From assembly GCA_945872355.1 (NCBI GenBank), contig CAMBZU010000029.1, forward strand, positions 1 through 38,272: DNA of 38,272 nt. The letters are read 5' to 3'. Origin of the DNA: Chitinophaga pinensis (GTDB lineage Bacteria; Bacteroidota; Bacteroidia; UBA4408). This document shows positions 12,296-28,913 of this stretch, piece after piece (the first letter of the stretch is position 1; each line of letters begins with the position of its first letter). A program made the position numbers and the translations under genes. Under the pieces are notes generated by a model that worked only from the letters and a program-made list of their open reading frames with translations, searched no databases and was not told the origin of the DNA.

Positions 12296-12453
12296 TAAAT
12301 TATGCTGTTTGACTGCCATTGAATAGAGAATTTTACAAAGATTGCTGAAATACAGGTGCGATAGTAATACCAATTGTATTTATTAAATAACCCAAAGCTA
12401 TTTATTTTGCATAATCGGAATAATTTTAAAAGCATAAAAATATTTTTTACAAG

Positions 12454-21612: not shown

Positions 21613-21715
21613 TATACCGATGTGAAATAAGTAATGGCCCAAATTTGTTTCACGGCATTTACCAATCTAAGTTTTTAAATGATTGGCATAAATTATAAAT
21701 CACATTGGTATTATT
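21613..21715 (-). repeat. Dispersed palindromic repeat, copy A
   Basis: About 100 bases whose two ends are near-perfect inverted copies of each other (ATACCGATGTGA at the left, TCACATTGGTAT at the right, one mismatch). Positions 21615-21661 match the reverse complement of copy B (36247-36343) with about three mismatches in 47 bases, including the shared core AATGGCCCAAA and TTGTTTCACGGCATTT. The inner and right parts are more diverged. No coding sequence; MITE- or REP-like in build. Confidence 0.7.
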
Positions 21716-22008: not shown

Positions 22009-23718
22009 TTAATCTTCAATTTCTAATTTAGCAACAGCATAATTTGGCTTTATGTTTTTAATATATAAATAGCAGCCGTATGGCGGAAACAAGCAGCCAA
22101 GCAACCATTTGCCAGTACTAATTCTTTTCCATGCTTGCAAATAAACCTCCTTGCCCGATTTTGACCAAGATGCGTATTTTGTATATAAAACGTGTGTTTT
22201 TGTTGAGGCTAAAAGTTTTTGATCTGTGTTTCCATTGGCATCTATTTTAGCAAAGGCTATTGATTTTGCCGCTCCAGAAACTCTCATGCTGTTGATGTTT
22301 TTAGCATTTTCAGGTTTTATTTTAAAAGTTTTAGGGTCGTAATTATTATTGTTATCAGCAAAAATAAACCTCAATTCATTTTTATCTCTAAAATAGCTAA
22401 AGGAGTTAAATGCACCATTGTCATTGGTTGTGTGTTGGTATTTCGGAATATGCTTTATCCAATTAATTTCGCCATTAGTGGCAATGTTAGCAATTAAAAT
22501 AGCTTTTGATACATAATGATAAGTGTAGGTTGTTTGCCCTTTACTATTTGTAGTTGTTGTAACATAAAAATAATCTTCTTCTAAAATTAAATTGGATGTT
22601 CCATTGTCCATAGCCACATATCCTCTCAATTTAAAGGCTGTTGAAATTCCTTCATCCTTTTTGGCATTTCTCTTTGTGGTCATAAATTCAACAGTTGACC
22701 TATCAAGTTTCTTTTGATTGTCTGATAATACTTCACCTGTTTTAGGGTTTAGTTTTGCATAAAAAATACCATCAAAATCATCTACATTCCCTTTTTTTGT
22801 TAATTCAGAATAGGTTCCTGCACATATTAATTCACCATCAGGAGTCATTTCTAACGAAGCTTTTAAAATCCCTTTGTTTTTAAATATCAAATCATACTCA
22901 AATGGTTTGGTATCGGGCTCATTTACATTAATGCCAACTATTTTATAATACCATGTAGCTTCCCCGTTTTTCTTTTTTTCTTTTCTTTCAGCCTTTGTTT
23001 CTGCTGCATTAACATATACTAAAGAATATACATAGCCATTGTCTCCAACTATCGCAGAACTGCCATATTCAGAAATACCCAAATCAAATGTTGCTGATGA
23101 TAATTCAGTCATGTCACTTGGATTGTAAAGCGTAAGTGTTACATCACCCGGGTATAATGATTTTTCAACTTTTTTAGAAGGCGCCTGATTGATAATTAAT
23201 ACCTTGTTTTTTAATCTATTCGTTTTAATTGTATATCCTCCACCATCAACTGAAGATAAATTAAAAATACCAGTTTTAACTGTCTTTGTGCTCCTTGTAG
23301 CTAACTTAGTCGATTTTGAAATTGGTTTATAGGAATTATCTAAATCTTGAAAATATAAAGAAGTAGTTTTATCTTTCCCTTCTCTTCTTGTATAAAAAAC
23401 CACTTCTTTGGTATCTAAACTTATCTTACTGAAATAGTTGTATTCGTCAGAATTAACTACCATACCACCTGATTTACTTTTTGTTGCCGTAATTGATTTG
23501 GCTTCACTATTGGGAATTAAACTGGTTGGTGATAATTTCCAATAATTCAAATCTCTCCCTTTACTTGTCATTACCGATAATTCATTATCATGTAATTTAA
23601 AATCTATAATATCACGCGCTCCGTTTAAGTTCGGACCAACCTTTAAACTGCCATCTTGCGCAAAAATGCTTTGGATGGAACACATAAATAATAGGGCAAG
23701 CTTGATCTGTTTTTTCAT
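22009..23718 (-). CDS. Secreted protein of unknown function
   Basis: A 569-residue exported protein with a Sec signal peptide (MKKQIKLALLFMCSIQSIFA, mature from QDGS). The sequence is beta-rich, with repeated units such as GGGYTIKTNRLKNKVLIINQ, GDNGYVYSLVYVN and PDGELICAGTYSE that suggest a beta-propeller-like fold; this is inference. I recognise no family. The C-terminal part holds a short cysteine-containing stretch (LLGCLFPPYGCYLYIKN) near residue 540, and there is no T9SS sorting domain. It is divergent from the protease gene at 23823 with a 104-bp gap, which may hold a shared regulatory region. Confidence 0.7.
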   Translation of the reverse strand: MKKQIKLALLFMCSIQSIFAQDGSLKVGPNLNGARDIIDFKLHDNELSVMTSKGRDLNYWKLSPTSLIPNSEAKSITATKSKSGGMVVNSDEYNYFSKISLDTKEVVFYTRREGKDKTTSLYFQDLDNSYKPISKSTKLATRSTKTVKTGIFNLSSVDGGGYTIKTNRLKNKVLIINQAPSKKVEKSLYPGDVTLTLYNPSDMTELSSATFDLGISEYGSSAIVGDNGYVYSLVYVNAAETKAERKEKKKNGEATWYYKIVGINVNEPDTKPFEYDLIFKNKGILKASLEMTPDGELICAGTYSELTKKGNVDDFDGIFYAKLNPKTGEVLSDNQKKLDRSTVEFMTTKRNAKKDEGISTAFKLRGYVAMDNGTSNLILEEDYFYVTTTTNSKGQTTYTYHYVSKAILIANIATNGEINWIKHIPKYQHTTNDNGAFNSFSYFRDKNELRFIFADNNNNYDPKTFKIKPENAKNINSMRVSGAAKSIAFAKIDANGNTDQKLLASTKTHVLYTKYASWSKSGKEVYLQAWKRISTGKWLLGCLFPPYGCYLYIKNIKPNYAVAKLEIED

Positions 23719-23822
23719 AAATGGAGGCTTTTTTTAAAAAAGAAAGTGACAAATTAAAGTCTTTTTTTTTAAACTAACAAAATTGTGTTTTATTTGCAAA
23801 ATATTGAAATTCTATACATACC

Positions 23823-25160
23823 ATGAAATACACAAGCTTACTTACAACCATAGCTATTTATTTATTTTGCACGCAACTGTATGCGCAAACAAATGCTGAT
23901 TCAGCAGGTGTTTGGAAGAAAGTTTGTGATGATTTTAAGGATTGCAAATTGGTATTTAATGAAAAGTTTAATGATAATTCAAATAAATGGCCACTTGTTA
24001 ATGATGCTGAAAAAGGTTTAGCCGAGTTAATGCCAAATGGCGGATTGCATATCAAAACAAATAAAAAAATTGATTTTGCGCAATGGATTAAATTGGATGT
24101 TGATCAATTTGAAGATTTCTCCATTGAATCAGATATCAAATTTACAGGCGGTAGTGGCGATGCCTTTTATGGCATTATATATGGCGTTAAAGACTGGGAA
24201 AATTATCATTTCTTTTGTATTAATGCTTCTGGGTATTATAATTATGGCGTGCGCTACGAGGGCTTAAATGCTGTTTTTAGTGGCAACCTATATTCTTCTA
24301 ACATTTTAAAAGGTAAGAATGTAAACAAATTAAAAATCAAAAAGAGCGGTAAAAAAGCTTATTTTAGTGTAAATGGTGAAATTCTAGATAATTTTAACTA
24401 CAGGCCAATCGTTGGTAAACGTGTTGGTTTTGTTTCTTTTGATGCCAAAATTAATTTAGAAATAGCCAATTTGATTTATCAAAAAGATATTGATACCGAA
24501 AGCACACCTGTTGAAAAAGGAGATGAAAAATTTACCTCAAGTGGCACAGGTTTTATTATAAGTCAAAAAGGTTATGTGGTAACAAATTACCATGTGATTG
24601 AAAAAATTGAAAAGTGCTTTGTTGAATTAAAAATAAACAACGAAGCTAAAACCTACGAAGCTGAAATAGTGCAAAAAGATCCAAAGTCTGATTTGGCCAT
24701 CCTTAAAATAAAAGGAGCCACGCTTGATCCTGTTCAGTTTAAAATTCCTTATACTTATCCTGCAAGTACTTCAGATGTTGGCACACAAGTTTTTACCTTA
24801 GGTTTTCCTATGGCGCTTACCAGCATGGGTAAAGAGGTAAAGTTTACTGATGGTAAAATAAGTGCTAAAACAGGCTACCAAGGCGATATTGGTTCTTATC
24901 AAACTTCAGTACCTGTGCAGCCAGGCAATAGCGGAGGACCACTTTTTGATAATGAAGGCAGATTAGTAGGCGTTATTAATGCAAAAATTATGGAAGCCGA
25001 TAATGTGTCTTATGCCATTAAATCGAGCAGTTTAAAAAATCTGTTTGAGCTTTTGCCAGAGTCTATTGAAATGGAAAATAAAAATGAAATTGCAGGTTTA
25101 ACATTAGAGCAAAAAATAAAAATGTTAAGCAAATTTACAGTGCTCATCAAATCAAAATAG
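23823..25160 (+). CDS. Secreted trypsin-like serine protease with N-terminal lectin-like domain
   Basis: A 445-residue exported protein: signal peptide (cleavage after LYAQ), then a concanavalin A/LamG-like jelly-roll at about residues 35-215 (VFNEKFNDNSNKWPL, FYGIIYGVKDWENYHFF, GKRVGFVSFDAKIN), then a trypsin-like domain at about 235-420. The catalytic triad is visible: H257 in VVTNYHVI, D290 in SDLAILKI and S370 in GNSGGPLF. The core resembles HtrA/DegP proteases but lacks a recognisable PDZ domain. It likely works in the periplasm or at the surface. Four paralogous barrel-like genes follow at 6-12 base spacings, which suggests the protease and the barrels form one operon and function together. 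Substrate unknown. Confidence 0.85.
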   Translation: MKYTSLLTTIAIYLFCTQLYAQTNADSAGVWKKVCDDFKDCKLVFNEKFNDNSNKWPLVNDAEKGLAELMPNGGLHIKTNKKIDFAQWIKLDVDQFEDFSIESDIKFTGGSGDAFYGIIYGVKDWENYHFFCINASGYYNYGVRYEGLNAVFSGNLYSSNILKGKNVNKLKIKKSGKKAYFSVNGEILDNFNYRPIVGKRVGFVSFDAKINLEIANLIYQKDIDTESTPVEKGDEKFTSSGTGFIISQKGYVVTNYHVIEKIEKCFVELKINNEAKTYEAEIVQKDPKSDLAILKIKGATLDPVQFKIPYTYPASTSDVGTQVFTLGFPMALTSMGKEVKFTDGKISAKTGYQGDIGSYQTSVPVQPGNSGGPLFDNEGRLVGVINAKIMEADNVSYAIKSSSLKNLFELLPESIEMENKNEIAGLTLEQKIKMLSKFTVLIKSK

Positions 25161-25166
25161 CGCGCT

Positions 25167-25886
25167 GTGAAGTTTTTAATTCCATTATTTTTAAGTTTCT
25201 TTTATTACTTGCAGGTTTCGGCGCAATCCGATACAGTGTCATTATTTCATAACAGTACAAGCGCAGCATCAAACAAAAGCACCAATTTGCATAAAAATGC
25301 AATTAATTGGAATCTATTTCAACTTACAAGAGGGGGAATTTTAGTTAATTATGAGCGCATTTTGGGCAATTCGGGCTTTGCAATTACTGCAGGAATTGGT
25401 GTAAGTGTTTTTGACCCCATTGGCCAGTTTTATGTCAAAAAATTTGCTTATTACTATAAGCCCGATAGCTATTATTCAAATGAAAGAGAAACCACTATAC
25501 GTGCGCTATATGATATTGGTGCTAAATATTATTTTGACAAGGAAATGGGTGGAAGTTATTTAGGCACAGGATTTACTTCCATTGCTAATACCGTAGGTTT
25601 ATCAATAAATAACTACGATGCAAATTCCGCATTAATTAATTCAAGTAAGTATCAATTAGATTATCGAAGCAATGAAATTAAATTTCTCATTGGTTTTGAA
25701 AATGAAAACGATAATCAATTTTATAATGATTTTAATTTTGGATTTGGTTACAGGATGATAAATTACGAAAATTTGGTTTTTACCAATACAACTAATCCGC
25801 TACAACCGATCGAAGTGAGTAAAGTGAATAAAACAAATCAAACCCCTTGGCTTTTTATGTCGTGGAAAGTGGGGCTAAGATTTTAA
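25167..25886 (+). CDS. Barrel-like outer-membrane protein, paralogue 1
   Basis: A 239-residue exported protein, first of four tandem paralogues. Signal peptide to SAQ, then the shared motif SDTVSLF, the family motif TRGGILVNYERIL near residue 56, IGQFYVKK near 84, YDIGAKYYFDKEMGGSYLGTGF near 112, YRSNEIKFLIGF near 165 and the C-terminus PWLFMSWKVGLRF. The alternating aromatic strands and terminal phenylalanine suggest an 8- to 10-strand outer-membrane beta-barrel, by inference. It starts at GTG, 6 bases after the protease stop. I know no named family for it. Confidence 0.75.
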   Translation: MKFLIPLFLSFFYYLQVSAQSDTVSLFHNSTSAASNKSTNLHKNAINWNLFQLTRGGILVNYERILGNSGFAITAGIGVSVFDPIGQFYVKKFAYYYKPDSYYSNERETTIRALYDIGAKYYFDKEMGGSYLGTGFTSIANTVGLSINNYDANSALINSSKYQLDYRSNEIKFLIGFENENDNQFYNDFNFGFGYRMINYENLVFTNTTNPLQPIEVSKVNKTNQTPWLFMSWKVGLRF

Positions 25887-25896
25887 TACATAAACA

Positions 25897-26625
25897 ATGA
25901 TCAAAAATTTATTTTTTATTTTATCTTTTATTTGTTTGGCTCAAAAAGGGCTGGCACAAAGCGATTCATTAGATGTGTTTAGAACACCATCAAAAAACAA
26001 AAGCAATAATAGTGCATCAGGTGCTATGGGCAATAATTCATTGTCTATTAGTCTTGCTCATTTAGGCAGAGGTGGCACTATGCTTACCTATGAACGTTTT
26101 ATTAATAACACTCCATTTGCAGTTTTTGCAGGATTGGGCTTCAATAAAATTGATCTTATAGGGCAATTTTCATTTGACAATGAAGGTTTTTATTATGAAA
26201 ATGATTATAACGATAATAACACTGCTGAATTATGTAAAATGATAGATTTTGGTGTAAAGTATTTGCCCGAGAAAGAGTTAGGCGGCGGTTATTTTGGATT
26301 AGCATATTCTTTTTATGAGAATATTATTACCCAAAAAGTGAACACAAGGTATGAATTAATAAACAGTACAAGTTCTTATAAACTCAACTATAATAGTAAA
26401 GAATTTAAAGTAATCTATGGTTCAGTTAATGATGTAGATAATAGGTTTTATAGTGATTTTTATATAGGCACTGGTTTTAGATTATTGGAGTATGATCAAC
26501 TAGATTTTAAAGAAACAGGTTCTTCAAGTCCCAAATATGATAGAGCGCTCGCAATTATTAAAGAAACAAAAAGTGCAACTAAACTATGGCTTTTTATAGG
26601 TTGGAAAATTGGGGTTAGATTTTAG
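25897..26625 (+). CDS. Barrel-like outer-membrane protein, paralogue 2
   Basis: A 242-residue paralogue of the preceding gene, 10 bases downstream. Signal peptide to LAQ, then SDSLDVFR, GRGGTMLTYERFI near residue 57, IGQFSFDNEGFYYEN near 87, DFGVKYLPEKELGGGYFGLAY near 115, YNSKEFKVIYG near 168 and LWLFIGWKIGVRF at the end. The same order of motifs as paralogue 1 shows gene duplication, but the proteins have diverged strongly, so the duplications are old. Confidence 0.75.
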   Translation: MIKNLFFILSFICLAQKGLAQSDSLDVFRTPSKNKSNNSASGAMGNNSLSISLAHLGRGGTMLTYERFINNTPFAVFAGLGFNKIDLIGQFSFDNEGFYYENDYNDNNTAELCKMIDFGVKYLPEKELGGGYFGLAYSFYENIITQKVNTRYELINSTSSYKLNYNSKEFKVIYGSVNDVDNRFYSDFYIGTGFRLLEYDQLDFKETGSSSPKYDRALAIIKETKSATKLWLFIGWKIGVRF

Positions 26626-26635
26626 TAAATAATCA

Positions 26636-27385
26636 ATGTCGAAATGTTCAATTTTATTGATTCTAAGTTATTTTGTTGTTGCTCTGGGCTATGCTCAAAC
26701 GGATAGTATAAGTGTTTTTAGAGTCAATCCTAATGCAAAAAAACAAAATGGGTCATCAAGTATTGGCCTCCGCAACGCTATTGCAATAAATATTAATAGT
26801 ATAGCCAGAGGCGGCGCCATGCTTAGCTATGAAAGATTGTTTAAAAGTCCTGAAATTTCTATTTATGCTGGCTATGGCCTAAGTTTTATCGATTTAGTGG
26901 GCCAATACTCATTTGATGAGGAACTTGAATTTTATCCACAGGACGACTATTCAACAAAATCAATGGTAAGCCCAGGTAGAATCATTGACGTTGGTTTAAA
27001 GTTTTGGGATGCTACCCTTTGGGATGACAGTTACATTGGTTTAGGATACTCGTATTATTCAAACAATCTAAAAAGAAAAATCGATAGTCAATACAATATA
27101 GCTCAAGATGGCCCCCGTTCTTATAATTTAGATTACATAAGTAATGAAATTAAACTTGTGCTAGGTTTTACAAATAGCGATACAAGAAGACTTTATGTTG
27201 ATGCTGCTGGTGGCTTAGGTCTCAGATTTGTAAATTATCAAAAATTAATAATTACAGACGACCCCTTTGCTGCTTTTAATATACTTACTGTAACAGCTAA
27301 TCGAGAAATTCAAGTTGACAAATCCAGTGAGTTTAAAATAAAATTTTGGGCCTTTCTAGGATTAAAAATAGGCCTAAGAATCTAA
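26636..27385 (+). CDS. Barrel-like outer-membrane protein, paralogue 3
   Basis: A 249-residue paralogue, 10 bases after paralogue 2. Signal peptide to YAQ, then TDSISVFR, ARGGAMLSYERLF near residue 61, VGQYSFDEELEFYP near 89, DVGLKFWDATLWDDSYIGLGY near 119, YISNEIKLVLGF near 173 and FWAFLGLKIGLRI at the end. The final residue is isoleucine where the other copies have phenylalanine. It ends 11 bases before the fourth, disrupted copy. Confidence 0.75.
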   Translation: MSKCSILLILSYFVVALGYAQTDSISVFRVNPNAKKQNGSSSIGLRNAIAININSIARGGAMLSYERLFKSPEISIYAGYGLSFIDLVGQYSFDEELEFYPQDDYSTKSMVSPGRIIDVGLKFWDATLWDDSYIGLGYSYYSNNLKRKIDSQYNIAQDGPRSYNLDYISNEIKLVLGFTNSDTRRLYVDAAGGLGLRFVNYQKLIITDDPFAAFNILTVTANREIQVDKSSEFKIKFWAFLGLKIGLRI

Positions 27386-28167
27386 ATGAACTATTTATGA
27401 AACAACTATTTTGTATTTTTTCGCTCTGCTTTTGTATACATCTTCATGTCAATGCACAATCAGATTCTCTTTCGTTATTTAGAGAAAATAATGCATCAAA
27501 TTTTGATAAAACAGGGAATAAAAAAAATTTCTTTTTTTTAAATCTAACCACGCTTTTTAGAGGCGGTTTTGCTCTTGGTTACGAAAAGTATTTTGGGTTC
27601 TCAGGATTGGCTGCTTATGCACATATAGGTTATACTGCAAGAGATTTTACAGGGCAATATTAAATTAAGGATGGTAATTCTATCTTCTTTAATTATGAAA
27701 CATACAAAGGAGGAAAAAAACCAGGCTATATGTATGAACTAGGTACAAAATATTATTTTGAAAAAGTACCAAGTGGAAACTATATTGCTGCAGCCTTTTC
27801 AACTATAATAAATACAAGGGTTAGAGATTTAACGGATGAATTTATACCTGTTAATATAAACAGTAAATCTTATTTAGTTAATTACTCAAGTAAGGAAATA
27901 AAATTAATGTTGGGAAAAGCGAGTGATGCCTCAGAAAAATTTTATACTGATTTTGCTTTTGGTGGTGGTTTGCGATTCCTAAAATATGATGATGTAAAGT
28001 TTACTACACAGGACGGACCTGCACTAGAAATAAACCGTTCCCATGCTATGAGAGGGTGGCGCTTCCAAACGAAATTTCCAAATGAAATAGTGCATTTTCT
28101 GCCAATCGAAATGCAACATACAAACTTAAAAACCGCCACTTTTACTTACCATGTTTTATGCCCAGTA

Positions 28168-28692
28168 TTAAATTGATTTGCTATATAATTCCTTCCATCG
28201 TAAGTCAGTTTGTTGGTCAACCCATTGTTTTGATTTGAACCCTCCGAATCTTAAACTTTGATTTAGTAGTTTCCCAACTCCAATTGAATAAATAATTCTA
28301 TTGTCTTTTTCTAATTCTATATAAATTCCATCTGAAACTTTGAATACACCATTCATACCTTTAATAGTTAAACCGTCGATTGAATTACTTGGTATTTGAC
28401 CAGGCAATATTTCTTTAACACCACAATTTTCATCTAAAACAAATATTTTACTATTTGAGAGATTTCGAATTATCCTACCTCCCTTTTTGAATTCTAATAA
28501 TTGCAGAAAGGATGCAATGCCGATACCTACTCCAATGCTTTTGTTTATTTGATTATTTGAAATTGATAGTCCCAAGGCAGCTATTAACCCAAGAGACATC
28601 CTTGTGTAAGGATCTATAGAATGTTCTAAAGATTTTAATCCCTTGAATGATATCAATCCTGAAGCTGTGGTAATTAAATTTTTGTTTTTCAT
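28168..28692 (-). CDS. Unknown protein inside the inserted segment
   Basis: A 174-residue protein. Residues about 30-65 are hydrophobic (MSLGLIAALGLSIS and GVGIGIASFLQLLEF), perhaps one or two membrane segments. The remainder is soluble, with GGRIIRNLSNSKIFVLDENC near residue 71 and a basic, tryptophan-containing C-terminus (KQWVDQQTDLRWKEL). No family recognised and no catalytic motif seen. It lies wholly within the insertion in paralogue 4, on the opposite strand, so it is probably cargo of that insertion. A 15-base palindrome lies 53 bases upstream of its start. Confidence 0.55.
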   Translation of the reverse strand: MKNKNLITTASGLISFKGLKSLEHSIDPYTRMSLGLIAALGLSISNNQINKSIGVGIGIASFLQLLEFKKGGRIIRNLSNSKIFVLDENCGVKEILPGQIPSNSIDGLTIKGMNGVFKVSDGIYIELEKDNRIIYSIGVGKLLNQSLRFGGFKSKQWVDQQTDLRWKELYSKSI

Positions 28693-28744
28693 GTTCTGTT
28701 TTATCTATTTTTTATTCATATTTCATGCCGAAATAAAAGACCGC

Positions 28745-28759
28745 CAAAATGACATTTTG
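28745..28759 (-). promoter_or_regulatory. Palindrome upstream of the inserted gene
   Basis: CAAAATG-A-CATTTTG, a perfect 7+1+7 palindrome in the short region before the start at 28692. Possible operator for the inserted gene. Confidence 0.3.
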
Positions 28760-28913
28760 TTATTTTTGAGACGATAATGCTTTTAATAGTTTTGGAAATA
28801 TCGGGCATAAAATTATTTGTATGTGAAATCCTTTAGCCAAAGTGTAAAAAAGGAAATAAAACCTTGGTTGTTTTTAACGTATAAAATTGGCTATAGATTT
28901 TGATGAAAATCTA

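Follow-up and report, generated by a model that had tools for sequence, protein, structure and literature searches.

What separates the two parts of an interrupted surface-protein gene in a duplicated array, and how that DNA arrived there, is the question raised by the locus described here, which lies in a contig stretch of 38,272 nt (hereafter the window). Three intact paralogues occupy the plus strand at 25167-25886, 25897-26625 and 26636-27385, and a fourth reading on the same strand (27397-28035) can be aligned with them over their length. Against a profile built from paralogues 1-3, the translated first part of paralogue 4 scores 138.5 bits; when all six-frame fragments of at least 15 residues from the window were searched with this profile, the piece 28811-28900 scored 17.7 bits (E 2.1e-4) and the best unrelated fragment 4.1 bits. 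The displaced C-terminus, with its stop codon, occupies 28811-28903. Omission of the intervening 775 bp (28036-28810) brings both parts into one frame, reading ...PALEIN/NYLYVKSFSQSVKKEIKPWLFLTYKIGYRF, with the cut falling exactly at 28035/28036 and the gene resuming at 28811. An earlier reading of the sequence alone had proposed an insertion with these very boundaries and had taken the terminal motif, in a different frame, for the family C-terminus: restoration of the frame establishes that the insertion is real and its limits exact, the profile match bears out the motif, and the change of frame follows from a length of 775 not being divisible by three. The first part also carries an in-frame TAA (27661-27663), separate from the insertion, so paralogue 4 is broken twice and is a pseudogene. 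The word 'barrel', used of these proteins in the sequence-only reading, was its author's own; Pfam gave no significant match to paralogues 1-3.

An uninterrupted version of the gene was sought in other genomes. A DNA search of 60 relatives found no empty site, and a protein search of the genus (four genomes, including the window's own) showed no paralogue 4 in the other three. In a synteny check of four relatives, two were without a paralogue at the locus and one, from another genus, without any in the stretch taken. The interval 22009-28903, between a gene for an 826-aa protein and an ABC-F gene, varies in content within the genus: it is empty in genome G001, holds only a 569-aa gene in G003, holds that same gene, a trypsin-like gene and one paralogue before the contig ends in G002 (the nearest relative), and holds four paralogues in the window's genome.

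The mechanism of insertion had been described as unidentified, a verdict that no longer holds: the insert can be recognised as an integron gene cassette that carries an attC. With a probability of roughly 0.92, 28036-28810 is one such cassette, joined outside any array by an integron integrase. Read on the minus strand, it begins with TTATGCCC (28803-28810), continues through a 174-codon open reading frame (ORF; 28692-28168) and closes with a 128-nt segment (28163-28036) ending in GGGAACG, which contains R'' GGGCATAA (28163-28156) and the L''/L' arms. The single opposite-strand ORF and the lack of a transposase noted previously both stand. The first cassette bases pair with R'' in 8 of 8 positions, as expected of a cassette that lies between foreign ends, and belong to an inverted repeat of 16 nt (88% complementary). 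The single ORF is thus followed by an attC in its own orientation with R''-L''...L'-R' pairing, although several L-box pairs have been lost. The boundaries of the insert coincide with attC core sites and there is no target duplication, both of which are expected if the segment is a cassette with an attC. The target, on the minus strand, is CAAATAATT^GTTTATTTC. Crossover at attG, or secondary, sites follows the rule G^TT (or G^WT); on the cassette strand the window's reads T^GTT rather than the usual G^TT, and the three bases after its R'' are AAA, in contrast to AAC in relatives. These departures may reflect a different position of the cut, or mutations acquired once the cassette was in place. 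The 174-aa product has no family in Pfam or NCBIfam; its predicted structure, of low confidence (mean pLDDT 66), has N-terminal helices followed by a small strand-rich part, and a fold search with this model returned nothing at E<=0.001.

Recognition of 28036-28163 as an attC draws on several lines of comparison. The segment is 86% identical over 138 nt to a site (L020:11761-11895) in G055, a genome from a different family, where the neighbouring sequence is not the same. This second site is fully palindromic, GCACTAAC-ACATGGTAAGC...GCTTACCATGGGAAC-GTTAGTGC, in what we take to be the R''/L''/L'/R' boxes, with R'' complementary to R' and L'' to L'; judged by its sequence it is a textbook attC. 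Twelve candidate sites were aligned with MAFFT, and RNAalifold found no consensus structure on that alignment. With an R/L structure assigned by hand from the same alignment, 78.1% of cells are paired (63.4% in shuffles) and changes on both sides affect 38 cells (15.7 in shuffles), so the pairing covaries. Shifting the structure by 1-3 columns leaves 26-38% paired, a control biased in the structure's favour because the structure was derived from this alignment. The window's own site folds only weakly as a single strand (-14.3 and -11.5). A leave-one-out covariance model (R2), built from 11 sequences with the window's site excluded, matches the window at 28163-28028 (76.4 bits, E 5.8e-18), the only real match in the 38 kb; in 16 loci (94 kb) chosen for other reasons and serving as a negative control, R2 recovered the window's site (within L033) and one match of 18.8 bits. 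Rfam held no matching family at gathering score for the six sources searched.

The sequence-only reading had suggested searching the insert against other genomes, and this proved informative: eight loci on genome contigs encode homologues of the ORF, and the own-genome copy (66%, contig C98) sits inside an array. Where flanks were available, most homologues lie between cassette ends. Loci with upstream sequence show a TTATGCC-like start, exactly TTATGCCCAATATTA in four of them (L011, L012, L019 and L005). On the 3' side, most carry TAATACTGGGCATAAC or a close variant (an R'' resembling GGGCATAAC) and then attC sites of different types, with L019 and L006 lacking that R''. The same gene is thus found in further arrays beside attC sites of other kinds, and its combination with cassette starts and varied attC types indicates that it travels as a cassette whose attC has changed.

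Across the window's genome, an attC model that includes the window's site (R1) gave 28 attC-like matches at E<=0.01, clustered on contigs C98, C86 and C122. One attC type recurs at 92-98% identity on C86, C84, C98 and C122. Sites standing alone, as the window's does, occur on C5, C6, C11, C22, C38, C57, C75 and C84, in stretches of 5-7.5 kb; being spread over many contigs, they make off-array cassettes look common in this genome. On C5 (L185:3451-3945), an ORF followed by a lone attC forms another apparent off-array cassette; we take its product to be MazF-like and the neighbouring gene to be alaS-like. Comparison with empty sites for two lone cassettes outside the window gave no clean outcome. 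Contig C22 (L188:1771-1923) carries a repeat of about 150 nt, of which the genome, C113 included, has more than 30 copies (89-97%); it is absent from the window, which holds two pieces of a neighbouring repeat (21668-21711 and 12367-12404). A tyrosine recombinase gene adjoins a transposase gene on the cassette-array contig C98 (L019:3824-5930), beside the homologous ORF. This recombinase was considered as the integrase and dropped, being paired with the transposase, which is presumably IS91-like.

Which enzyme might have carried out the insertion is less immediate. The integron integrase model TIGR02249 found no IntI above cut-off in the window's genome or in any of 60 relatives, and one in 295 genomes of the class. 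In G017 and G004, attC arrays are instead adjoined by another, Xer-like tyrosine recombinase. The window's genome encodes a member of this family on C113, a contig with 117 nt left beyond the stop codon of the integrase. A profile of four such integrases (A4) has matches at E<=1e-60 in 148 of the 295 genomes; in a scan of viral contigs, relatives reached at most 46% identity.

The family resembles IntI as a tyrosine recombinase, the core aligning over both halves with that of VchIntIA (PDB 2a3v), but differs in that the interval from box I to box II is some 42 residues shorter and an extra N-terminal domain is present. Where IntI has 63 residues, the Xer-like family has 21, and the distance from GLRxxE to HxLRH is 91-92 residues in all 40 integrases measured (3 of 43 fell outside the patterns), compared with 134 in VchIntIA and 95 in XerA when counted by hand on alignments. 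By this spacing the IntI-specific segment with the I2 helix is absent from all 40. Four family proteins score 193-215 bits with TIGR02249 (cut-off 265; none of four passes) and higher, 217-234 bits, with NF040815 'tyrosine recombinase/integron integrase' (cut-off 220; two of four pass). The extra part before the core domain measures about 75-105 residues (about 190 in one) and carries a WS..K.W motif.

The position of these genes relative to attC sites was followed at 43 integrase loci: 40 from the A4 search, those of G017 and G004, and C113. Model R2 gave 40 attC matches, 38 of them downstream on the integrase strand; the other two were a duplicate of a counted site, read in reverse, and one upstream site. 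Of the sequence searched, 112 kb lay downstream of the integrase and 239 kb upstream. Where at least 2 kb was available downstream, attC sites followed the integrase at 19 of 23 loci; the 20 loci with less had none there, 12 of these ending within 300 nt. As G017 and G004 were selected for their known attC sites, leaving them out changes the figures to 30 of 32 for matches and 17 of 21 for loci. A short motif, TATAWNNNAGTTA, lies within 260 nt past the integrase at 29 of the 43 loci (79-106 nt past it in 27); the 790,856 positions that these loci comprise contain it 34 times altogether. It had been picked after viewing 22 downstream stretches (19 of them among the 43 loci) and is present in 14 of the 24 remaining loci. 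We read it as a putative attI, cut at G^TTA; the window's genome has a copy, CTATAAGTAAGTTAGC, on C113. Integrase, attI-like site and attC array thus occur together in relatives as an integron platform. Two contigs (L127 and L141) stop exactly at the GTTA of the motif, as expected if variable cassettes begin there.

At the level of whole genomes, attC matches (E<=1e-6) occur in at least 162 of the 295, being found in at least 110 of the 148 with the integrase and at least 52 of the 147 without it (Fisher p 1e-11, not to be taken literally as the genomes are related). Among genomes with the best-scoring members (E<1e-120), at least 44 of 49 have attC sites. These are lower bounds, since no more than 11 candidates per genome were scored, under strict filters. 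The 52 attC-bearing genomes without the integrase may hold orphan cassettes, have missing contigs or use other enzymes. Twenty lower-scoring integrase loci were rejected as a negative control because they held 18 attC matches themselves, of which 13 follow the integrase on its own strand and 5, every one in G046, precede it on the opposite strand; the controls used instead were the 16 unrelated loci and the upstream sides of the integrase loci. The one-contig genome G046 (L171, L172 and L173) has short integrases, with open frames of 285-311 aa and matches from about profile position 100; its upstream sites on the other strand represent the divergent arrangement of classical integrons.

On the favoured reading, a cassette circle would have been joined, by way of its attC, to a secondary site resembling attG that happened to lie within paralogue 4, placing the cassette ORF against the direction of the host gene, in a reaction that would have used the genome's own C113 recombinase, Xer-like and without the IntI-specific segment. 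We infer that an integrase of the C113 type inserted the cassette because in related genomes such an integrase is directly followed by an attI-like site and attC arrays, a step that takes activity from position. Alternatively, a canonical IntI, since lost or acting in an earlier host, may have placed the cassette, with the C113 integrase a bystander: a binned genome may miss a contig, and IntI with the extra segment is the only enzyme reported to move cassettes in the accessible part of PMC7790495. This course is possible but unlikely, given that canonical IntI passes in so few genomes of the class while attC sites are so widespread, and that attC arrays follow the Xer-like genes in a single orientation, together with a conserved attI-like site.

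Far less probable is a small, non-autonomous MITE-like transposon with short inverted repeats (TTTTATGCCC/GGGCATAAAA) and one gene, mobilised by a transposase in trans. The inverted repeat near the ends of the insert and the lack of a transposase within it would suit such an element, but the left repeat arm (28154-28169) is set back 118 bp from the left end, where R'' is located, no target was duplicated and the host frame is exactly restored; moreover, the end segment recurs in G055 next to different sequence, and the same ORF elsewhere carries different end segments. An assembly artefact, in which a cassette contig was wrongly placed among the paralogues of this binned genome, is similarly improbable: the sequence is split into 133 contigs, and assemblies break at cassette arrays, but both junctions fall exactly at cassette ends with the frame restored, they lie well inside a 38-kb contig, and the search used, at its sensitivity, found a single copy of the window's attC type in the genome.

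Off-target insertion of a cassette into a chromosome is a known kind of event, represented here with clean anatomy. Like the cassettes at attG sites outside integrons, for which Loot et al. 2024 is cited in the accessible portions of PMC11023631 and PMC12901181, the window's has one ORF and an attC at a short, non-attI site without target duplication; it differs in belonging to a genome without recognisable IntI and in its T^GTT cut. The arrays on contigs without IntI resemble CALINs, clusters of attC sites lacking an integron-integrase, of which off-target insertion is one proposed origin (PMC8618304, in part), with the difference that an Xer-like integrase adjoins arrays in relatives. Any search demanding the IntI-specific domain, the method given in the available section of PMC9668308, would miss that integrase. 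The I2 helix is credited with allowing integron integrases to use folded, single-stranded attC, and its deletion kills IntI1 (PMC7790495, same part). Smyshlyaev et al. 2021 (PMC8138268, as far as its text was available) describe the IntI-specific insertion as not fully conserved in an 'integron-like' subgroup of tyrosine recombinases yet essential for integron function; insertion-free members are not tied to attC arrays in that text, unlike the present family. One complete Bacteroidetes integron, in Salinibacter ruber, is named in the accessible part of a 2022 survey (PMC9024848). Among the papers brought up by literature searches, PMC2426708 included and with subscription papers and preprints outside their scope, none was recognised as describing attC arrays that rely on an integrase lacking this segment.

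What emerges looks like a widespread, little-described integron lineage in the class. On balance, we favour a second lineage whose Xer-like integrase, free of I2, recombines folded attC sites, the task of I2 being done by another part of the protein, perhaps the extra N-terminal domain, with the cassette in paralogue 4 an off-target product. If half of the sampled genomes of the class do carry I2-free, attC-associated integrases, then integrons have been overlooked there or filed as orphan cassette clusters; and if the lineage is genuine, the need for I2 would become testable with natural enzymes. For its part, the cassette in paralogue 4 shows that chromosomal genes also receive cassettes.
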